A DNA stretch of 64,000 bases from Cryoendolithus antarcticus (lineage: Eukaryota > Ascomycota > Dothideomycetes > Cladosporiales > Cladosporiaceae): NCBI GenBank assembly GCA_002077065.1, contig NAJO01000009.1:992001-1056000 (forward strand), given 5' to 3'. Every line of letters begins with the position of its first letter. The stretch's first letter is position 1. Made by a program: the position numbers and the translations under genes. The notes beneath the pieces are model-generated. The model searched no databases. It saw nothing but the letters and a program-made list of their open reading frames with translations, and was not told where the DNA came from. Below, in pieces: positions 10,719-38,046 of the stretch.

Positions 10719-11935
10719 AAGTCAAGCTTTCCGGAGGTGCAAAGATGAGGGAAGTCCCTGTTGCGGCTGAGTGGAAAGAAGCATTACCCCATTGTCGAGT
10801 CTCTGCAGAAGGGTCTTGCGAGTCGCACGCGACCTCTGAGCTCTCAAGGTGGTGGTGTTGGTCACTTTCGCTGTCGCAGCTGGGTGTACAGGAGCACTGG
10901 TAAGGTCTTGAGATTCAGGAGAAGGAGCCTTGGAGTGAAGGAAGCAGAGCTTCAAATCGAAGTCGCTGGTCGTACCTGCCTCGTGTATTCGCAAATCGTC
11001 CTGTCCCATTCGTAGTACCCCCTTTTTGAGACCTCCGCCCAATTCGCCACCCTTGTATCTGCACTACCATGTCAGATCGCACATGTTCCATCCACGTCCT
11101 GCAGAAGTCAAAGGAAATTTCGAGTATTGCTACATATGAATCCTTAGTGCTCAGAGCGTCAGCCAACAACACCAGGCAGTCATCCACCACGTCTGCCGCA
11201 GTCCAAGGCTTCAGTCTCACCAAGCTTCTCCGAACCGTTCTCCACCACCTTGAGATGTAGGACATTCTGGTCTTCGAGCACATTGACAAAATCTACAAGC
11301 GCACCATCAACAGCTCGCATTGACTGCAAGAAAGGCTCTCTATCAGGCCCACCAGACTCACCGATGCGACTGGCCAGGAGCTCAAGCCCGTGCCAAACAA
11401 GCTGATGCTCGCAGTCCCGAAGGTGGAACATGCCCCATTTATCATCCAGGTATCGCCGCCGGCTCCTGAAGAACGAACAGCTCGCGAAGATGGCGATGAA
11501 GGCGCACGCGCAGGGACTTCTTTCCTGTGCGCTACTAGGGCTGAGAAGAGACGAGGACGTACTTGAAATCCCTGTGCAGAGAGATTGCGAGATCGTGCAC
11601 GTTTAGATCGTGATGCGCTGATCTTAGGTTGAGAGTGCTGCCAACAGTGCCTCGTGTACGTCTGCCGTGCGTTAGGACGGGCGAATTGGCTGCAGAATGC
11701 GGATATCGAGGCGCATACACTTTCGAGCATGACCTGATCGCACGTTCCTCTCGTATCGCCTCTGCGACCTGCCAAGCCGATCCGCGCTACGCTTATCCAA
11801 GCACCACATATTCCCTAGCCTCCTGTAACTCCGCAGTCGTCCATCTCTCCAACGCAGACCTACATCGTCTCATCTTGTGGTCTTGGGAAAGGAGGAATTT
11901 TCATAGATCAGACCTACGCTGCAAGGTCAGTCGAG
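10719..11935. other. Long intergenic stretch, no gene recognised
   Basis: 1.2 kb between the two F-box genes. There are open frames on both strands (for example 11293-11775 minus, about 160 codons), but none has a recognisable motif and they overlap one another in conflicting frames. It could hold remnants of further F-box copies; I cannot show this. Confidence 0.45.
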
Positions 11936-12649
11936 ATGATACCTACGCACGAATGGCAGCCACTGACTACTCCATATAGCCCATTGCCAACAACGTCTGC
12001 AGTCAATGAAGTCTTCGACATTTCTGAGTTGCTGGAGATGATCTTCTGTCAGGCCACGATGGCAGGCGCACTGCGCTGCCAACGCGTTTCGCATAACTTC
12101 CATGACTTGATCAATGCGTCCTCCGCCATCCAGGAGAAGCTACACTTCAAGCCTGCGCCAATCTTCGGCCCTGGATGCAGGTACATCCAGCCACAGCCGC
12201 ATAAGCTGCTACTGGATGCGTGGAGCGCAGTGCATAGTACACCACGAGCTGGCGACCCGTCCGTCAAAGTGCAGGACAGAGTGTCTCTACTACACTTGTC
12301 ATACATCGACAGAGTCGACTACCACGTATTGCCTGGTGCGAAACTCCTCAAGCCCGGCTGGTGGAGCAAGATGTTTGTCTTGCAGCCACCAGACGCCAGC
12401 CGCACGTTTCCTGTACAGATGCAGGTGACTGGGAAGGACAAGCTGGAACTGCGCTTGCTTTGCCAGATGTTGAGAGAGTGGAGTAAGACAACAGGTTACT
12501 CGCGGATGGCTTGGCAGCAGACACGAGACAAGGAGACGATCGAGGAATCCATCGCATACGCTGTGTCTAATGGAGAGGACGAAGCAGGACTAAGAGCTGC
12601 GTGGTATGGACCGTACGATGCCATCGAAGATGGGACATCTTCCGAGTAG
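11936..12649 (+). CDS. F-box domain protein
   Basis: A 237-residue single-exon protein. Residues about 25-75 read VFDISELLEMIFCQATMAGA, then LRCQRVSHNFHDLINASSAI and QEKLHFKP, an F-box. It is followed by the family's WWSKMFVLQPP motif near residue 140, also seen as a frame-shifted remnant in the neighbour at 9916. An intron-like signal (GTCAGT at 11927 to ATATAG at 11980) overlaps the start codon. If spliced it would remove this ATG and leave no nearby in-frame Met, so I keep the unspliced start. Inferred role: substrate adaptor of an SCF ubiquitin ligase. The target is unknown. Confidence 0.7.
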   Translation: MIPTHEWQPLTTPYSPLPTTSAVNEVFDISELLEMIFCQATMAGALRCQRVSHNFHDLINASSAIQEKLHFKPAPIFGPGCRYIQPQPHKLLLDAWSAVHSTPRAGDPSVKVQDRVSLLHLSYIDRVDYHVLPGAKLLKPGWWSKMFVLQPPDASRTFPVQMQVTGKDKLELRLLCQMLREWSKTTGYSRMAWQQTRDKETIEESIAYAVSNGEDEAGLRAAWYGPYDAIEDGTSSE

Positions 12650-13534: not shown

Positions 13535-14079
13535 AGACAGCGGCACGTGGTGCAGGGCAACGGTCTTTCATGCATGATCATCGGTCAGCACTGCATCTAC
13601 CTTTGTGTGGACTGCAGTCGCTGCCGGGACTGCTTCGTAGCGAGTGTACCATATTCTCGTCTCACACTCAGCGTATCCTGCATTCAACTCTGGCATTTCA
13701 CAGCCTGCACGCCGCCTTCGAGCCATGATGGCTTCATACGCAATACTGCGTGCCCGAGACATGGACCCTCAGCGTACGAGCTCGAAGATACTGACAGCTT
13801 CGCAGATCGAACAGCCATGGTCGAAAGGTACTTCTCAACAGACAGAATCTAGCCCTTCATACGACTTCTCGCAAGCTTAAGCGAAATGTTGTAGCTATAT
13901 GCGGGTGCAACTATCGACTTTCTCAGTAAAATCTGGGCTGGTCGCGCCTACGTGCACAAATCACATAAGTCTCTGGTCTGAAATGGCCCCGTCTAGTGAC
14001 ACCACCTCATGGCGCGCTACAACAAGTGAATCCAGCGGTTATAAAATGCAAGGTCTTATGAAGTCTCGATCCTACATGC
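13535..14079. other. Intergenic, nothing recognised
   Basis: About 545 bp between TOM22 and the next gene. Overlapping short frames without domain signatures; treated as UTR and promoter sequence. Confidence 0.45.
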
Positions 14080-15465
14080 ATGTACGCGCCACGTCCAGTA
14101 AGTTTAAACACCGACAACCTTAGACTAGGAGACGTCCACCAGCGCAGCAGGGCTGCACTTCCTATGGACCCTTACGCCACCGCTATGGATACCTCACCGG
14201 CGGCCCCAACGGAACAGGCTGTACCTACGACCAGGATCACTGCAGGCACTTCGCCTCCCAGCGCTCTACAGACATACCACCCCTACGCTGCTTCGCTCTA
14301 CAATGTGTCGTTCATGTGGCCGCCGAAAGACGTTCCAGAGCATGGCCCCAGTCATGAGGACGACGGCGTCAATGCTTATACAAGACAAGATCACCAGGTA
14401 ATTCAAGAAGCGCTGATAGTGCCGAGTAGCGCACCAGACCCATCACGGACACAACGTGGTCATCCGGAAATCGAACAAGGATCTCGTTGGGAAAGCGCAC
14501 TGACGAGTGATGAGGCTTTACCTCCGCACACCACATCAAAGGGAGCGCCAGCAGCCACAGCATTCCAAGGCCCAAGAGCGCCTTACGGCAGCCAGAGTCC
14601 GTACACCCACGGCCTAATGCAGCCTCTCGCACCCACGCGGCGGCCGCCCGGGTCTAGTACACAGAATACCCTTCCAGGCGGGAGGAATCGTCATCTCGCA
14701 TTTGATGGCGCGCACGACACCTATCCTCCCGCACCATCACAACAACTGCGACGGAAGCCCGCTCGCCTCCCAGCACAACAATCCAGCTCCCACCTCCTCG
14801 CCTTAGACGGTGCATCCGCCCCTCCCTCTCGTCGCTCTACCTCCCATCAACCCAACCCCCTCATCGACCCAGCACTCACGTCCACTCACCCACCTCCCAC
14901 CTCCCATCCCATCTCCCTCCCACCCGGCCCCTTCACCTGCCATCCTTGCTCCCAGACCGCCACCCTCGACGCCCCGCAGACTTTTTCAACGCAGAACGAG
15001 GTGCTGGCGCATATGCATACTCAGCATAACATGCCCCATAGTCGGCTGTGCTGCTGTGGCGTTTGTCGGTTTGTGTTTTGCGAGATGGAGGCCGATGGAG
15101 ACGGTGACGGGGGAACGGGGGAGGAGGAGGGAGTGAGGTGGTTGAGGGGAGGGGGGTTTGGGGAGGTGGGGATGATGGATGGGGGAGTAGTGGCGATGGG
15201 CGATCGGCCTGTGAGGACAGGAGATGGGGAGAAGGGGGCGGGCGATGTTGGTGGACGGGAAGAGCACTTCACTTGGCCAGCGACTATGGAGCAAGTGGCC
15301 AATGAGGCGGATATGGGCAGGCCGCAATGGGATGGAAGTCTTGATGAGTTTGTGGACTTTGGGGCAGGTGATAGAGGCCAGCAGTCCGACTTTGGCGACG
15401 TCAGCAGTAGCGCAGGCGCCGACTACGCGCCAGACGTACCAGGATGGCTTCATCCACCTACTTGA
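14080..15465 (+). CDS. Pro-rich orphan protein with one C2H2-like zinc-binding segment
   Basis: Open frame of 461 codons. The first ATG is at 14080, but the ATG at 14164 (MDPYATAMDTSPAAP) looks a more likely start. The first 280 residues are low-complexity Pro/Ser/Thr/Gln sequence. At about residues 285-330 there is FTCHPCSQTA...EVLAHMHTQHN, a CxxC...HxHxxxH arrangement like a single degenerate C2H2 finger. It is followed by a second Cys cluster (RLCCCGVCRFVFCE) and a Gly/Asp/Glu-rich tail. I do not recognise the family. A transcription-related role is only a guess from the finger and disordered flanks. The base composition swings sharply (C-rich then G-rich) across the gene. Confidence 0.55.
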   Translation: MYAPRPVSLNTDNLRLGDVHQRSRAALPMDPYATAMDTSPAAPTEQAVPTTRITAGTSPPSALQTYHPYAASLYNVSFMWPPKDVPEHGPSHEDDGVNAYTRQDHQVIQEALIVPSSAPDPSRTQRGHPEIEQGSRWESALTSDEALPPHTTSKGAPAATAFQGPRAPYGSQSPYTHGLMQPLAPTRRPPGSSTQNTLPGGRNRHLAFDGAHDTYPPAPSQQLRRKPARLPAQQSSSHLLALDGASAPPSRRSTSHQPNPLIDPALTSTHPPPTSHPISLPPGPFTCHPCSQTATLDAPQTFSTQNEVLAHMHTQHNMPHSRLCCCGVCRFVFCEMEADGDGDGGTGEEEGVRWLRGGGFGEVGMMDGGVVAMGDRPVRTGDGEKGAGDVGGREEHFTWPATMEQVANEADMGRPQWDGSLDEFVDFGAGDRGQQSDFGDVSSSAGADYAPDVPGWLHPPT

Positions 15466-28470: not shown

Positions 28471-29326
28471 CGCGTAGGGGTCTTGAGCTGTGGCGAGATC
28501 TTGGGTATCTTCGACCACGTAAGCCGGTTCGGATGTTCTCAGATAGCTTAGGATTGTACAGACTTTCGGTTTTCCAAGTCGTCTTGTTCTGTTGCCGATT
28601 CTCTTGCTTTGTCTTTAGTGGAAAGAGGGAGATGAGGCAGAGTGAGCTTTGATATAACACGCAATGGAACAGCAAGAAGTAGCATCGTACCATCGATCTC
28701 ACACTCAACTACATCACGTTGTACCATCACTCTCCGCCCCAAGGGCCGCCGCGGAGGGCAGTGAGGCCATGCCGGTGAGCTCGGCTTGTCACAGATGGGA
28801 GGCCTCATGGGACCTTTGGACTTGAGTAAGTTGAGTCATCTTCATATAGTGTGATATGTTACATTCGCCCGGTACGTTGCGGCTGCTCACGTGGAGATCA
28901 GACGTCAGTATTTGGTACCTCAGCAGAGTCATTAAGTACACAGTTAAGTTGGGGTGAAGAGGCCGATGTGAGCGAGGCCGCAGAGCGATGCAATTTCGCC
29001 AAGCCTCGGTGACTTCACCTCTCAGCTTACTCCACGTGCTGGTCATCAGCCTGAAGGAAGATGTCGTCACATATGATGTACGCTCTCAGTGGAGGCTGGC
29101 TTGCTTGGTGTTTCGTTGCTTTCGCGCCACTGTCATATGTATCAAAATCATGCTTAGTGCGCCACCCATGTAGCCTGCAGCTAAGATCTACCGTGCTGCA
29201 CCATGCCCCGCTCAAGTGCCGACAAGACGTTTCTCACAAGGCTGACAGCTGAATATGTTCGTATGTTATGGTCTAGTACGCTGAGGGTCATAGCGTACTA
29301 TAGCGTTATCGGATGTGTTCATAGCC
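28471..29326. other. Intergenic region upstream of PMP3 and the gasdermin-like gene
   Basis: 856 bp between divergent genes. No domain-bearing frame seen; assumed to hold both promoters. Confidence 0.4.
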
Positions 29327-30130
29327 ATGACAACCCACCAGCCTACCTTCATGCTCCTGCCGGATACAAGCTTCCTCCCCGGCAAAGGCATCCAGCTCGG
29401 CACACTCTTGCCTGTTGAAACAGCTTCGAAGCACCCAGATGCTCGGCGACCCTTAAACTCTCCTTCTCGCATTCCTGTCGACGAGGCAACCGTCACCCGC
29501 CAAACTCACAAACAATGGTTCCTCGACACCACACAGCAAGCGTCTGGCAAGGTCGGCCTTTCAGCTGAGCTCTCAATAATCCCAATACTTAGCGGTGGAC
29601 TCTCAGGCAGCCGCGCAGTCAAAGATTCGATCAAGATCACCGCCGAGAACGTCGCTGTCGAATGGTTTGCCCCGGACGAGATATACATCGCCGAAGCCAC
29701 TGTCAACCCAACACTGCGGAAGTACGCTGGTACTCTACGCAGGAAACCTATCTATATGGTCACGGGACTCATGACGGCCTCGGTGGCTACCATCGAGTAT
29801 GGCAAAGATCGCAGCGGCAGTGCGGGAGCAAAGCTCGCCGTCGATGGCGCAGCTTTCGGCGCACCAGGCAAGGTCGGTCCGGAAGTCGAGGGTTCGCGGT
29901 CTTATGAGCGACGACAGGGCTCAAGTCCAGTTGAGCCATTCTTGTTGGCGTATCAGCTTCTGCGCATCCGGCTGAAGAGGCAAGAGGGGCAATTTGAGAC
30001 GCGCATGGAGACTAAGTGGGCGTTGGCGGGCGATGAGGATGGAAAGATCAAATTTGATGGTGGAGCGAATCTAGGAGAGTGGGCAACTGTACCCGTGCTT
30101 CGCGCGGGAGACTTCGAAGATAGCGACTAG
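29327..30130 (+). CDS. Gasdermin-like pore-forming cell-death effector (candidate)
   Basis: A 267-residue single-exon protein; the first in-frame ATG is at 29327 (MTTHQPTFMLLPDTSF). No signal peptide is seen. It is rich in beta-type alternating segments: KVGLSAELSIIPILSGGLSG, AVEWFAPDEIYIAEA, RKPIYMVTGLMTASVATIEY and EPFLLAYQLLRIRLKR. This succession (a KPIYMVTGL strand, a Gly-rich linker, then an AYQLLRIR strand) and the size match fungal gasdermin-like proteins of the RCD-1/HET-Q1 type. The short acidic C-terminus would be the inhibitory tail. Its stop is 15 bp from the stop of a subtilisin-like protease gene on the other strand, the partner type that activates HET-Q1 by cleavage. Fold assignment is from pattern and context, not alignment. 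Confidence 0.62.
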   Translation: MTTHQPTFMLLPDTSFLPGKGIQLGTLLPVETASKHPDARRPLNSPSRIPVDEATVTRQTHKQWFLDTTQQASGKVGLSAELSIIPILSGGLSGSRAVKDSIKITAENVAVEWFAPDEIYIAEATVNPTLRKYAGTLRRKPIYMVTGLMTASVATIEYGKDRSGSAGAKLAVDGAAFGAPGKVGPEVEGSRSYERRQGSSPVEPFLLAYQLLRIRLKRQEGQFETRMETKWALAGDEDGKIKFDGGANLGEWATVPVLRAGDFEDSD

Positions 30131-30145
30131 CTGCAATTCTGATCT

Positions 30146-32945
30146 TCAGTCCAATTCGTGCAGTATCCTCTTGATCGTCCAGACCAAGTCCTGAGGAGCA
30201 GCCGCCTCAAAAAGCTTTTCTGGCACGACGTAGTGATAAAGTCCGCGAGGTTCGTGCATGAGCATGAAGATGCGCATCATGTAGCCGACTGAATGTAGTC
30301 GCGCTGTCTTCTGCACGTATGATTGTCGTTCACTTTCGTGTGACGCACGTTGACCGTGGCGCTGAGCTTGTTCGACTCGCCAGTGCACATATGCTTCCTG
30401 CCAGTTCTGCATGAGGGAAATGACGAGCGCAGCGATACCAGCTGCGATGGGAGTGGCGAATGATGTACCCGTTTGTCTCACCAGCTGTGTGCTGCTATCA
30501 GCATTTGGGAGCCATTCTGACTGCACATCGACGCCAAGTACAGCGAAGTTCGACTCTCCGGCGAGAGCGCTGGGGTTGCGGTCATATGGATTCCCGAGGG
30601 CATCGGTAGCGTGTACGCAGAAGACATCGCGACGCTTCGCCGGCCAGCTGCGACCCTGATTGCCGCCAAAGTTCGACGCGGAGGCGAAGATAAGTACTTT
30701 CTTGGCTTGAGCTTTCTCGATCGCTTTTTCGATTGCCGGTACTACATGCGACGTGCCAAGTGATAACGAGATGATCGAGACTCCCCATGTTTCGACAGCA
30801 TATTCGATGGCCTGTCTTGTGGTCAATTTAATTGCTACGTTATAGTTTGTATGACAAATCGAGGAGACTTACCTTGGCAATGGCTTCCTCCGTTTCAGGC
30901 CGCATGGGGCCCGCTTGATCACGCCGTCGTACCACTCTCGCTACGTAGATCTGTGGCTCAGCCTCGGCGGTAATGTCAAGCACTGTCGAAGCGATATGCG
31001 TGCCATGACCATCGTCATCCTCATCCGCCTGGAAGACATAGCCGTCCCCCGTTTCATAGCCTGTAGCTGCGGCAGATATCCAGCTTCGACACTCTGCGAT
31101 CCGCTCGTAGTGTAATGTATGTGAATCCGCAGACAGCTTTAGTCCCGTGTCAATGATGGCGATCTTAACGGGAGTTGCTGCATCGGAGCGATGCAGGAAG
31201 TATGGCTGGATGTGATGCTGGACCGTTGCGAGCCATTGATCGCTTGGATGCTGCGTGGTATTTGTAGTACTGCAATGATTGTGTCGTGCATTGCATCTGT
31301 CCCGATGCACTCTGTGCGTATCAGACGCTTGATCTGCGTCATGCTTCCCGCTGGTCGTTTGACTTTCGCGGGCGCCGAATAGCGCGTCGAATGTCACGCC
31401 GAAGCCGACCTCGAGTGCGCTCTGCAAAGGTAGCACTACTTTCTGCAGGAAGACCTCTCTAGCTTTGTCGCTTAAAGCGTCCGTCTCGCCTTCAAGCTTC
31501 AATTCTTGAGCGTCAAGACATGCGTCAACAGCGCCAACTAGCGCTTTCGCAAATGGCTCTTCTTTGGCATTCTTGATCTGGTCTTCGTACGTATCCCAGG
31601 ACACCTTCTCACCACTGATCAGTGCTAGCAACATGGTTCCCAGTATCGGTAAGCTTGGGGATGACTTGTTGATGAATGAGGCGAGAGCTTTCTGCTTGGT
31701 ATTACCTGCTCGAGGCGTAAGACTAAAGAGGAGCTGCCAGTTCGCCTCTGATGTGTTCTTGGGATCAATATATTGCCACAACTCGTTCGAAGTCTGCTGT
31801 CGTGGCCATAGCGCACTGCCACTCAAATGTAGGTAGGCGTATGCCAAAGTGAGTGCAAGAGATAACCTTTGCCGTAGCTTCGATGACAATATTGTCTCGG
31901 GGAGCCTGTCTGTGCTCCAGTGCGAAAAGAGTGCCGGACTGCTTCCAATGGGGTTCTCGGATCCGTCAAGGTCCTTGGCAGACTTCACGGTCAGTCCGCC
32001 CGATGCGATCTCTACGATGGACTCTGAGGAATCGACCTGTAGCAGTTCGCACACCTTGACTGGTGGAGTTGCTTGTTCTTTGTCCGGCTCGTCGTCAAAC
32101 ATAACTTTGCGCTTCCGTGACGTCGAGGTCCCATGCTTGCCATCTCCAGAACACTTCAACTTGACCGATCTCCAGTATACTGCATGGCCGTGCGAGATGG
32201 AAGAGACGGCAAGGCATGTTACATCAGCGCCTCGCACATCTGACGCACGACCTAATGAGATCTTGGTATCGTAATGATCGCAGATCTTACACTTACACAC
32301 GCTGATCCAGTGCTTGAGAAGAGCCTCATGGGCGGCACTCATGGCGTCGAAGATTGGTTTCGTTCCATTCCATTCCGTAGTTGGCGCCATCTCGATGGGC
32401 GCTGCAATGGCTGCGGCATGTTTGCCCAGATCTCTCAGTAGACGCTTTTGAAGCTTCCATGATGGCTGGTCGACTTTCAGTCTCGCTAGCAGCCAGGTGC
32501 GTCTTCGTGAATCCGTCACATTGACTTCCCTGCTGAAAAGCCCGAGAAGCAGAACGTAGGACTCGCCGCCCTCGTCGTAGGTACTCTCGTCCACTCTGAT
32601 GCCATCGGCACTCAAGTCCACCCAGTCCTCTTCGAGAGTATCCAGGAAAGCATCGCCACTATCGAGCTGTTGGGTATTGAAAACCTTGCCCTCTGCGGCA
32701 CCTTTGGCTTTCACTATGATATCGAGCTCGGCACGGAGCTTTGCGTTGAAGCCGTGGTTCCTCGATGGAACATGGTCTTTGTGCGATGCAGACGTGTCCG
32801 TGCTCACTCTACAGTATTCTGCAGCTTCCCGCAAGAGTCGGCAAGCAGTGTCAAGTAGGTCAGACTTCACCCAGTCGGGGACGTGGTCCGAACGGACCGT
32901 ACCATCATCATGGTCTACCTGGTCTTCAGACTTCCTCTTGTTCAT
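30146..32945 (-). CDS. Subtilisin-like (S8) protease with large N-terminal fungal domain, HET-Q2-like
   Basis: A 912-residue protein in two exons, 30873-32945 and 30146-30811. The junction restores EEAIAK|AIEYAVETWGVSI. The S8 catalytic triad is complete: Asp in IAIIDTGL, His in DDDGHGTHIAS, Ser in TGTSFATPIAAG, with the oxyanion Asn in FASASNFGG. There is no signal peptide or propeptide, so it is probably cytosolic. Residues about 200-560 resemble the domain called DUF7580 in fungal immune-type proteins (KVCELLQ..., LRQRLSLALTLAYAYLHLSG, LWQYIDPKN). This architecture and the adjacent gasdermin-like gene match Podospora HET-Q2, a protease that triggers gasdermin-mediated death. The identity of the N-terminal domain is less certain than the protease. 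Confidence 0.85.
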
Positions 32946-33269
32946 CTCACACCATGCTGTAACGCAAGAGAGGCCTCACTGCAGAGAAGATTACAGTCTA
33001 TGATGTACACAAGTCCTCCTTTGCCACATGCCCGATCGCGCTATGCACCGCGTTCAGGTGTCTACCGTTCAGCCGCATCTTCACGTGACGTCAGTGGCTG
33101 ACCCGAACGACCATCTCACTGCATGTGTTGCTGATCACCATAGTGATCTGGTATGGCACATCGGGTAGCTCTAGTACCGCTTCGCAGGTACAATCCCTTT
33201 CTAGGCCCAACTGATCTTCTAGATGTAGCAAACAGATTGCTGTAGACATCGGAGCGTCCGGCGAAGACC
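32946..33269. promoter_or_regulatory. Divergent spacer between the S8 protease and the PAH/zinc-finger gene
   Basis: 324 bp head-to-head between the protease (minus) and the 1,349-residue regulator-like protein (plus). It would allow shared control; no motif identified. Confidence 0.45.
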
Positions 33270-36200
33270 ATGTCAGCGACAACAGGCCACCAGGGCATCA
33301 TCACGCAGCTAGCCACCGAATGCAGACGCATATTGACTTACGTACGGGATGGAGGCGAGTCCGCGCAGGTGGACTGGGCGGGAACTGAGGTCGCGCGGCT
33401 TGGTGTGTGGTCGGCTATGCTTGGTGTGTCCGCGGCAGGTGATGTGTCTGTCGATCATCGCCTGAGGAAAAACTTCGAGGTGTATCAGCTGCTGACTGAT
33501 TTGCTTGATGCATTGAGGGCTGACCTGCGACAATGTAAGGATCACAGGTGCGCTTCTTCCACTCCACGCTGCTGATGACTCTCAGTGTACTCTACGGCAG
33601 CTGTACAGGATCGAGGCATAAAGCAGCCAAGGGCCAAGCGAGCGAGACACCATGAGCCCAGACGATCCAACCGCCGCAGAGCATCAAACTCGCCATCATC
33701 CGACGAGGAATACGCAGCGGAGACTCTGCGGGCTCGCATCAGCGATGATATTGGTCGACTACTACGCTATGCAGCTCAGATACGGCAGTATAGTGAACAA
33801 CGCGACTACGATAAATCTACGACTTACGATCCCAAGGACTTAGACGGATCTCCTGTCATGTCGGGCTTCAGCAAACACTTGTGCTTCATGGTCGACCGCT
33901 TACTGCCCACAACCGAGGCTAGTCTACTGGGCACGCCGGAGTGGCTGCGCCGTCGATTGATACTGGTGACTGAACAGCGATGGAGAAAACTGATGTACGG
34001 TCAGCGTCGGGCTAGCGTGCGAGCAGGGGAAGCCCACTTTGTCGGAAGTTTGCCGAATCGTCCTGCAACACAGCTGGATATGGGCCCGAAGCCCTTCTCC
34101 AGCCACATCGATGATAGTAGTCTGGCCATTGTTCCACCGATAAGTGAGCTCTTTGCATCCGGCAATGTGCCATCGGTACATGCCGCTACGACGCTGGCTG
34201 GTAGCGTCCGGCTACAAGCCGAAAGACCTTTGGCACTGTCACAAGCGGGGAGCAGTGCCACCAAGATCACGGGAGGGCAGTTGAGCTTCCCGGCTCCCCC
34301 TCCTGTACCTAAAGGCGTTGATGTGTTTGAGTGCTCCTATTGCTGGCGTCCGAAAGAAGTGAAAGAGGCACAAAACGTGCGTAGGTGGCGGTTCGTCTTG
34401 TGCTCGTCATTGATTGCGCAAATGAGGCTGATGTGATGCGCAGAACTCATGTCATGCACGATCTTTGTCCATACTTTTGCGTCTTCGAGAATTGCAAAAC
34501 TCCATTGACCACCTACCCAACGTCGACAAAGTGGATTGATCATCTCGAGTCGGGACATGCGCGCACAGCCTGGGTATGCCAAGTATGTGAGAAGCAGTCT
34601 GACAGCGAGCTTGATATGATTGGGCACACTCGAGATACTCATGAACCCTTGGTCACAGACAGTGCGGCAGCACTGATTGCCCGGATGAGCTTCAACAGAC
34701 TACCTCTTAGACTTGAGTGCTGCCCCTTCTGTCGATATGAGCCTGCCGAAGCGGAAGTCAGCCAACGCCAAGCCTTGGTATTCGAACACATCGGACAGGA
34801 TCATCTGAAGGGCTTCGCACTGATGTCCATTCCATGGGCATTTGGCGACGATAGTTCGGTCGCAGGTGACAGCTTAGCCACAAAACACGACGCGAAAAGC
34901 GTGGCGACCAGGTCTAGCTATGGGTCAGAGGTAGAGACGGCAGCAACACTAGCGGCCAGTATCGATTCCGGTCAGCCAATCAAGTTGACATCGGAAAGCT
35001 TGAAGAATGTCAGAAGTGCCTCAGATCTTGAACAGCCGGCGGCAAGTCTCATCAACACTTGGGCAAAAAGCGTTGCGACTTCGGAAGTCATCATCGAGAC
35101 ATCCACAGAGCCAATGCTTTCTCCAGCACCAGGTCGCATCATACCTTTGCCGCAGGACGGCGATGGTCCAGGCGGTATGGAACAGCGCGGACCTGTCGAG
35201 TTCAACCATGCAGTCAATTACGTCAATAAGATCAAGGTGAGCAGCTCCGGACCCTCTCACGTGAAAGCAAGAAAACCACGCTAATAACAATACCCGCAGG
35301 ACCGATTCTCATCACAACCCGACATCTACAAGCAGTTCCTCGAAATCCTCCAAACATATCAACGCGAATCAGAGCCCATCCAAGACGTCTACAGTCAAAT
35401 CACGCATCTTTTCAAAACCGCCCCAGATCTCCTCGACGACCTCAAGCTGTTCTTGCCAGAGTCTGCCGCTGCTGCTAGAGCCGCTTCCGAAGCTGTCAAA
35501 GGCGATACTACCTTGGACTCGCAGACTGAGATGGATCTGGAGCTTAGGCTTTCCGGAGAAGACACGAACAAGTCGTTCTCCTTTCCTGCGCCACCTCCAC
35601 CAGAATCGTCCCGACCAGGATCTCCTCTAGGGATGAATCTACCTGGGTACGATCAATCTAGTCAGCCTTTACCTAGCTCTGGAATAAAACGACACAAGTG
35701 CCCATACTGCTCAACAGAGTTCACGCGACATCACAATCTGAAGAGTCACCTGCTGACACACGTCCAAGAAAGGCCATATGCTTGTCAAACTTGCGATGCG
35801 CGGTTCAAACGGCTTCACGATCTAAAGCGACATACCAAGCTACACACAGGCGAGAAGACCCATACATGTCCCAGATGTGGAAGACGCTTTGCTCGTGGTG
35901 ATGCGCTAGCGCGCCATTCCAAGTTCGAGGGAGGCTGTATGGGCAAACGGTCCAGTTCCGATGACGATGATCGATCTTACAGCCGGGGCGTGGACAACAG
36001 TGACGATCTTACCGTAGATTACTTCGCAGATCGGACCGACAGTTCCGAGGATACCGCCTACGATGTCGACTACGATATTATGAAAACCACAAAACCCCCA
36101 ATCAGAGCCATGCACAATAGCCGGGCATATCTCGGGAACGATCGCGAGCATCAGCTCACTGAAGATCCGCATTCTTCTGAAGGCATGTACGTTGAATCTG

Positions 36201-37492
36201 CGTTCGAGCCTGCCGCATCTGCATATGCTGTCAGGCCGAAGCGGCCTCGAAGCTTGGTAGCCCAGCGACGATCGACAATCCCGACACCCGTCTTGGATTC
36301 GGAAGGCAGGACGTCGCCGGTCAAGAAGAACCAGAAGCGAGTGATCTTCCAACTGATCGACGATCAAGACTCTCGCATTCAGGCGCGCTTGCCTATGAGG
36401 GTTCTCATCTCTTCCCACGACACTACCGAGACGATTATCACGACCGTCAAGAACTTCTACGGTCTATTCGGTCTATACGAGTACGATGTCAGCTTCGAAA
36501 GCGAGGAAGGCATACGCATTGTCCCAGCTTACGACAACTTTGACAACGACATGGTGATTCATGTTAAACATATCAAGCCGGCTCCAGTCGCTCAGCACGA
36601 CTGCGCACATACTACATCACCCAAGAAGCCAGGCGCTGCCGACACATCATCGACGACCATGGAATGGTGTTCCACGCATGGTGGCCGGGTCCCTAGAGCT
36701 GAGTTCGAACGCAACGGTAAGGTGTACAAAACATGCAATGAGTGCAGCGAGAAGAAGCGCGATTTTCATCAGAAGCAGACAGCTGCAAGATCAAAGGCTT
36801 GGCCAGGGAAGGGTTGGCCAGACCCTGAGCAATACTCGAACGCTGACAGTGCCAGATCGAAGGACGGGAGTCATTCCAGTGACGGAGGGGCGATCAATAC
36901 AGCGGGTGCAGACGGCAACAGCAAGATGTCAGGAAAAGAGGCAGAGAAGAGTAAGATCGGCTTTTTGATCAAGGGTCGTGCCGCGCAAGCTGCCGATCAA
37001 GATCGTATGACTCCATCGAAAGCAGAGACGTCGCCACTACTTGATCGGAAGCTCCCTGTACTCGATTCGGCGTCCGGCTCGAAAGCGACAGTACCGAAGA
37101 GTAGAAAATATGTGGGTAATACCCGCGTCAGTGCTACTACACACTTGAGCCCGTCTGCGAAGCAGTTTATAGGTCCAGCCCCGCGAGCGTTCACAACACC
37201 GTTCCCGCCGGCCGCCCAATCAGCTGAGCCGGACTTGCGAGAAAGCAGCAATGTACCTGGTCATGTCCGTAGCGGAACCCATGACCGTATCGGTGCTGTC
37301 CACAGCATTGCTCCTAGCATGCAGCCCGAGGCCAGTAATCCATTATCAAATGCTGCAGTTAGCTCGCAGGATCATTTTCCTCGAAATCATTCGGGTGCAA
37401 GTCCAACACCGGATGACTTGCAGGGAGCACTTACCAAGGCTTTGGCGGAAGATCCTAGTCAGACAGATAGCGAGGCTTCTGTCGAGGAATAG
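33270..37492 (+). CDS. Fusion protein: fungal zinc-finger N-terminal module + Sin3-type PAH + three C2H2 fingers
   Basis: A 1,349-residue model in four exons: 33270-33534, 33586-34384, 34444-35236 and 35300-37492. All phases are consistent. Residues 20-90 hold a helical N-terminal module seen in fungal zinc-finger and NLR-like proteins (RLGVWSAMLGVSAA...DHRLRK..). About 320-480 hold C2H2-like finger segments (FECSYCWRPKEV, CPYFCVFENC, WVCQVCEKQSDS, RLECCPFCRY). About 605-675 hold a paired amphipathic helix close to Sin3 (AVNYVNKIKDRFSSQPDIYK, then QFLEILQTYQRESEPIQDVY). Next are three C2H2 fingers (HKCPYCSTEF, YACQTCDARF, HTCPRCGRRF), then a ubiquitin/PB1-like segment (MRVLISSHDTTETIITTVKN). 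The exon 2/3 junction is the least certain. Two separate genes remain possible, but no stop or promoter-sized gap separates the halves. Confidence 0.72.
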
Positions 37493-38046
37493 CAGTGACG
37501 GTTGATCCTTAGGACCGCTAGTCCGACTCTATCCCTACATGCGAAGTTGATTAAAGGACTACCTCGGCTACAGGATCACCAAGCTCTTCGACGCCGTTGC
37601 GTACGGTCAACTAGCTCCTCCGGCCTCGAGCCTGTATCGTGACACGTCACTCCGCTGGCTTGGACTTCCTACAAGTAGCAATGTGACGGATATCATCGAG
37701 TATGCTTACACGCGTATTACAAGGGAGATGCCATAGGTTCTCGCAACGAGTGCAGGACGGACCTGCCGTCCGCAGAGCGAGAGCCAGTCGAAGGATGTAT
37801 CGCAAGGCTGACGTCCAAGTAGAAGGCTATTGGTCTCCCGTGGACTTAAGATCGTGATCAAGGGCCGCGGCGCCCAAAACTTGGCAGTGTCATCGACATC
37901 TTCCACATCAGGTCTCGTAGGTCCAATTCAAATTCTCTTGGCAAGGTGTCAAAGTAAATGTACGCGCTCCTCTGGGAGTCGCGCAAGCTCAGCATCTGGC
38001 AGATGCGAGAGGCTTGCCTCATAACCGCTGTGTACTATCAGTTCCC
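37493..38046. other. Convergent 3' region, nothing recognised
   Basis: 554 bp between two convergent genes. No domain-bearing frame; assumed 3' UTRs. Confidence 0.45.

Follow-up and report, generated by a model that had tools for sequence, protein, structure and literature searches.

A candidate gasdermin–protease cell-death module in a divergence island of the Cryoendolithus antarcticus genome

Two tail-to-tail genes and their second copy

The stretch of DNA analysed here, a window of 64 kb (C139:992001-1056000), comes from Cryoendolithus antarcticus, the new name for Rachicladosporium antarcticum, with CCFEE 5527 as type strain (PMC10739867). It carries a gene for a predicted fungal gasdermin (fGSDM) next to a gene for a subtilisin-like protease of family S8, and very probably the two form a fungal gasdermin/Q2L-type module for regulated cell death. 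The source genome used comprises 46,965,068 bases in 149 contigs; the draft genome was announced with 47.4 Mb, 267 contigs and 18,781 predicted genes (PMC5502844). The features of the pair are as follows.

29327..30130, plus strand: predicted fungal gasdermin gene, single exon, 267 amino acids (aa), no internal stop (translation, profile matches)
30131..30145, no strand: stop-to-stop gap of 15 bp, genes tail-to-tail
30146..30811, minus strand: protease exon 2, second half of S8 with Asn738 and Ser808, and the C-terminal tail
30812..30872, minus strand: protease intron, 61 bp, GTAAGT...ACAG
30873..32945, minus strand: protease exon 1, N-terminal region, DUF7580-like domain and first half of S8 with Asp599 and His647

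Translation and the coordinates of the open reading frames (ORFs) bear out the initial annotation, which had placed a 267-residue ORF tail-to-tail with the protease, 15 bp from stop to stop; the protease ORF (deposited as B0A48_04605) starts at 32945 and its stop codon occupies 30148-30146 on the minus strand. The proposed lack of a signal peptide fits as well, as neither N-terminus is strongly hydrophobic by Kyte-Doolittle average, a measure used here in place of a dedicated signal-peptide program. A second gasdermin–protease pair lies on contig C100 (gasdermin B0A48_16584), again tail-to-tail and, judged from the ORF ends, with 16 bp between the stops. The genome thus holds at least two gasdermins of the 267-aa kind, in the window and on C100, in a search made with single proteins only, which could miss distant gasdermins elsewhere. 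A third candidate on contig C72 (E 1.5) was dropped, as it was not recovered with the remote homolog as query.

Probable gasdermin identity and the sensor-like protease

Sequence comparison gives good support to the identification of the 267-aa protein as a probable gasdermin and of the protease as its likely partner. A profile (A2) of six homologs, consisting of the 267-aa protein and five relatives that include the metagenome protein P0006, a remote homolog (36-38% identical), was run against 177,635 distinct PDB sequences, a check that the initial annotation had called for. The three best matches were HET-Q1 (E 4.1e-5), RCD-1-1 (3.8e-4) and RCD-1-2 (8.1e-3). In the same search the strand pattern KPIYMVTGL...AYQLLRIR, already singled out from the sequence, falls opposite YMVTGIMVA and FVCAIRLVKI of RCD-1-2 in the alignment, and the homology with RCD-1 spans residues ~88-217. 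When the 267-aa protein alone was compared with the PDB by phmmer, the HET-Q1 pores (9uv9) came first (E 0.0032), with the next entry at 0.16. Alignment by hhalign to HET-Q1/RCD-1 fragments gave 96.7% and E 3.3e-10 over 186 columns. In a control with slightly different settings, the real profile scored 66.8, 200 column shuffles scored at most 23.0 (0/200 as high), the reversed profile 11.1 and the protease profile 15.1. Bacterial models also match weakly: PADLOC bGSDM is the sole PADLOC match of both the 267-aa protein (E 0.024) and P0006 (E 0.0029), and NCBIfam prok_gasdermin (E 0.065) is the sole match of P0001 and ranks behind an unrelated kinase model for P0006.

The protease is a 912-aa protein encoded by two exons, in which ~590 residues precede a Pfam S8 domain (residues 593-834, E 1.4e-22). 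Asp, His, Asn and Ser are the catalytic residues of subtilisins, and a motif search located Asp599, His647, Asn738 and Ser808, confirming the complete D-H-S triad that had been read from the sequence; equivalents are kept in P0009, P0010 and P0011, each in its own numbering. The Asp part of S8 is missing from P0008, the deposited model of Rachicladosporium sp. CCFEE 5018, probably through a gap in the annotation. The large N-terminal fungal domain that had likewise been described is real, namely a DUF7580-like domain at residues 345-512. P0008 and P0010 exceed the Pfam cut-off for this domain and P0009 stays under it; in a six-frame genome search, both C. antarcticus loci exceed the cut-off. 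No Pfam family matched residues 1-344, and a variable linker (526-592) is 40% identical between the window and C100 proteases. DUF7580 may be kinase-like. The long N-terminus, with the DUF7580-like domain in it, would form a sensor-like region.

Regarding the gene model, P0007, the deposited model, has the same intron junction, and the C100 copy is compatible with a 61-bp intron at the equivalent place. The 912-aa reading seems the better one, because three of the four other models retain 20 in-frame residues that are absent from the deposited 892-aa version. The AlphaFold model of the protease failed, with a pLDDT of 31 from 5 aligned rows. A further Oleoguttula protein, P0012 (LTR95_005846, 1186 aa), shares approximately the first 220 protease residues (52% identical, 266 columns) and has no S8 match; this overlap may reflect an N-terminal domain common to both proteins or a gene model that is a fusion.

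Gasdermin and protease genes are paired at all four loci checked, two in C. antarcticus and two in Oleoguttula sp. CCFEE 5521. At both Oleoguttula loci listed, the gasdermin and protease locus tags are consecutive (LTR95_010023/010022 and LTR95_016981/016980) and the contigs of the two partners have the same length, and a gasdermin gene devoid of a protease partner, which the initial annotation had regarded as telling against the pair, was not seen at these two loci. Rachicladosporium sp. CCFEE 5018 is represented by one entry per gene, with tags that are far apart (B0A51_07144, B0A51_15971). The C. antarcticus genome contains at least ~21 S8 loci (exon pieces merged by hand). A chance pairing is unlikely, because ~21 S8 loci stand against 18,781 genes, yet both gasdermins lie tail-to-tail with one. 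Between the window and C100, dN/dS is 0.10 for the gasdermin and 0.13 for the protease, indicating purifying selection on either gene in both copies.

Several results weigh against this identification. The strong PDB match depended on adding P0006: a profile of the five close relatives only, excluding this 36%-identical homolog, reached just 0.019, and P0006 alone gave 0.3. The hhalign score is flattered, because the fragments used (A4) correspond to regions already aligned by HMMER. The animal gasdermin family PF04598 finds nothing in the C. antarcticus genome, and on the protease side the DUF7580 match of the window copy, at 26.8 bits, falls 0.2 below the Pfam cut-off of 27. Finally, no Pfam family matches the 267-aa protein, and its AlphaFold model (pLDDT 31.3 from 6 aligned rows) is unusable for the fold. 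These last two results would also be expected if the protein were some other beta-rich protein with a protease as its coincidental neighbour. We nevertheless consider that explanation very improbable in view of the profile matches to three fungal gasdermins, the shuffle control, the pairing at four of four loci and the purifying selection on both genes.

Predicted mechanism and known systems

The best conserved part of the gasdermin lies at ~194-236: residues 200-236 are 95% identical between the window and C100 copies, and residues 237-267 only 55%. Its FLLAYQLLRIR segment aligns with the last matched RCD-1 stretch. The 50 residues that follow this last matched strand (218-267) amount to 5.5 kDa and are acidic (isoelectric point (pI) 4.3), and residues 1-217 are basic (pI 9.6). 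HET-Q1 of Podospora anserina is described as being cleaved after Phe238 with the loss of ~5 kDa, or 40 residues (PMC10989679), a piece near in size to this tail. Residues ~1-217 are therefore predicted to be the pore-forming part and ~218-267 an inhibitory tail, and we infer a protease cut at ~218-236, in the most conserved stretch. Building on the genes, their homology, catalytic motifs, pairing and purifying selection, we suggest a probable course of events, in which fold, signal, cleavage and its site, pore and death are inferred: (i) the gasdermin would be dormant, with its acidic ~50-residue tail holding the basic N-terminal ~217 residues (the pore domain) inactive, and the cytosolic 912-aa sensor-protease would be kept inactive by its own N-terminal part; (ii) the N-terminal region with the DUF7580-like domain would receive a signal and switch on the C-terminal subtilisin domain; (iii) the subtilisin would cut the gasdermin near its tail (~218-236); (iv) the released N-terminal part would assemble into membrane pores and thereby cause cell death.

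Among known systems, the Q2L sensor-protease/fGSDM clusters fit the window pair best, sharing with it adjacent genes, a multidomain S8 protease and a gasdermin partner. S8 protease genes are reported to lie in clusters with about 63% of fungal gasdermin genes, and CHAT protease genes with 19%; the clustered proteases show 18 domain architectures (PMC10197012). The partner domains named for Q2L are ANK, TPR, WD40, NLR and 'other predicted kinase-like' (PMC10197012, PMC12881547; reporting Clavé et al. 2022). DUF7580 is not named in the literature searched, so the window architecture may or may not be among the 18. Three features of Q2L proteins are present: intact S8 catalytic residues, a gasdermin gene within 10 kb and extra domains of a sensor-like kind. 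The initial annotation had compared the pair with HET-Q1/HET-Q2. From sequence, the gasdermin identity and the protease partnership stand up, and the likeness extends to a gasdermin of 267 aa here against 278, an S8 subtilisin partner and a tail approximately equal in size to the piece cut from HET-Q1. The specific analogy with HET-Q2 is loose: HET-Q2 is given as 388 aa (PMC10989679), whereas the window protease has 912 aa and a sensor-like N-terminus. Moreover, het-Q is described as idiomorphic (PMC10890737), with gasdermin and protease in different strains, whereas C. antarcticus carries both genes together at both loci of one genome. The window pair is hence a sensor-protease/gasdermin cluster and not an idiomorphic het-Q arrangement.

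With RCD-1 of Neurospora crassa the likeness lies in the homology of residues ~88-217; in contrast to the window gasdermin with its protease neighbour, RCD-1 is described as acting without cleavage, through two coexisting allelic variants (PMC12881547). Bacterial gasdermin–protease defence clusters follow the same two-part logic (PMC10197012) and are echoed in the weak bGSDM match, but the sequence similarity of the window protein is far under the family cut-offs. No report of the window locus was found among the papers listed for gasdermin together with Dothideomycetes, and the literature found with the combinations of Rachicladosporium, Cryoendolithus and black fungi checked does not mention 'gasdermin'. 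With this module, the known range of the gasdermin–protease death system would come to include an endolithic Dothideomycete from Antarctica whose sensor-protease is of a DUF7580 type. This kind of module is itself already known in fungi, and the part worth following is the divergence island in which it lies.

Divergence island and possible biological roles

Window positions 3-42438 are colinear, with gaps, to C100:106974-144707, a duplication of ~42 kb; comparison of the rest of the window with C100:85001-106973 gave no match longer than 150 bases. Among 19 other S8 loci, 14 form seven pairs that are 80-98% identical. Together with the colinear block, these paired S8 loci give a pattern as after whole-genome duplication or hybridisation, and 'massive gene duplication' is named for Rachicladosporium (PMC7325674). 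Within the block, the following features surround the pair.

28537..38036, no strand: divergence island, from 500-bp bins against the C100 copy
33270..35284, plus strand: divergently transcribed neighbour, ~631 aa, splicing uncertain, no Pfam family, in the divergence island
35288-37489: C2H2/PAH ORF, in the divergence island

The island, which contains the gasdermin, the protease, the divergent neighbour and the C2H2/PAH ORF, is sharply bounded against C100 ~111.4-119.4 kb, with 51-77% identity (median 66%; 19 bins of 500 bp), and its flanks (24.0-28.5 and 38.0-42.4 kb) show 76-91% (median 85%; 18 bins of 500 bp). Silent sites were compared in 23 non-overlapping ORF pairs with pN/pS <=0.7, taken from 314 window and 221 C100 ORFs of at least 80 aa. 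Synonymous divergence (dS) is 0.86-1.65 in the seven ORFs inside the island, two of which match the same C100 ORF, and 0.25-0.81 in 15 of the 16 ORFs outside; the outlier, ORF 11819-12646 (92 codons, 45% identity), has a dS of 2.19. Four-fold sites differ at 345/678 positions inside the island vs 996/3087 outside (Fisher p 2e-19), and the per-ORF contrast at silent sites gives a Mann-Whitney p of 4e-4; both p values are descriptive, because the island was outlined after inspection of the data. As a baseline, 16 of the ~21 S8 loci were paired by similar scores, with homeology unverified; seven of the eight pairs (80-98% identical) have a dS of 0.35-0.84, and one (54% identical) has 1.5.

The four other close copies of the gasdermin are mutually 85.8-93.3% identical, and the C100 gasdermin shows 71.5-73.0% identity to them; the C100 protease is 73.9-75.3% identical to the other close copies vs 86.4-97.8% among those. 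The two Oleoguttula copies belong with the window type. With the remote homolog as outgroup, the relative-rate counts are balanced (10:10, 10:10, 9:11 and 11:11) and give no sign of acceleration in the C100 copy. The six gasdermins do not yield a resolved gene tree. The split between the window and C100 modules looks older than that of the flanks, because of the excess silent divergence, the equidistant C100 copy and the even rates. The island could have arisen through old balanced haplotypes, through introgression or through homogenisation of the flanks.

As to the role of the module, we lean slightly towards a death switch that responds to stress or pathogens, or towards leaderless secretion, with no part in allorecognition; the island would then stem from the local mutation rate, gene conversion of the flanks or codon bias. 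The long N-terminus of the protease fits a stimulus receptor, and an inactive state of the protease is required, since both partners lie in cis in each of the two copies. The flanks carry conserved translation-type genes (IF-2B family, EF-Tu-like GTPase, DHX29-like helicase), in which codon bias could lower silent divergence, and the outlying ORF and the one aberrant S8 pair mentioned above are equally diverged at silent sites. However, the fast-evolving flank ORF 14062-15462 (62% identity) has a low dS of 0.51, and the remaining seven S8 pairs also stay in their low range.

It is possible, though doubtful, that the locus serves allorecognition, in which case balancing selection would keep gasdermin–protease haplotypes apart and the mixing of unlike haplotypes after cell fusion would lead to death. 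The position of the pair within an island of excess divergence that includes silent sites is consistent with this, as are the even relative rates, the equal remoteness of the C100 type from the window-type copies and the window type of both Oleoguttula copies. Trans-species polymorphism with a narrow footprint is described for Aspergillus het genes (PMC11138114), and rcd-1 alleles are reported to show signs of balancing selection (PMC10989679). Yet the DNA-level comparison covers two loci of one genome, both of which carry both genes, unlike the idiomorphic het-Q; the silent-site distances are near saturation in an island drawn post hoc, and the relative-rate test has ~20 informative sites and a remote outgroup, beside a gasdermin tree that lacks resolution. 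A further and rather unlikely extension is that gasdermin, sensor-protease and neighbour make up an old allorecognition haplotype, of which genome duplication or hybridisation brought two trans-specific types into the same nucleus. If so, the fungus would tolerate two separately tuned death switches, each protease would be matched to its own gasdermin, and a mismatch would be toxic. The two diverged pairs in one duplicated genome make a natural test case for pair-by-pair specificity and for hybrid barriers.

Beside the gasdermin–protease module, the divergently transcribed neighbour (33270-35284) starts 324 bp from the protease start and shares 64% identity with the C100 homeolog in its middle ORF. 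It is a possible third member of the module. A zinc-finger role would be a guess from its cysteines, with a Pfam match that is sub-threshold only.

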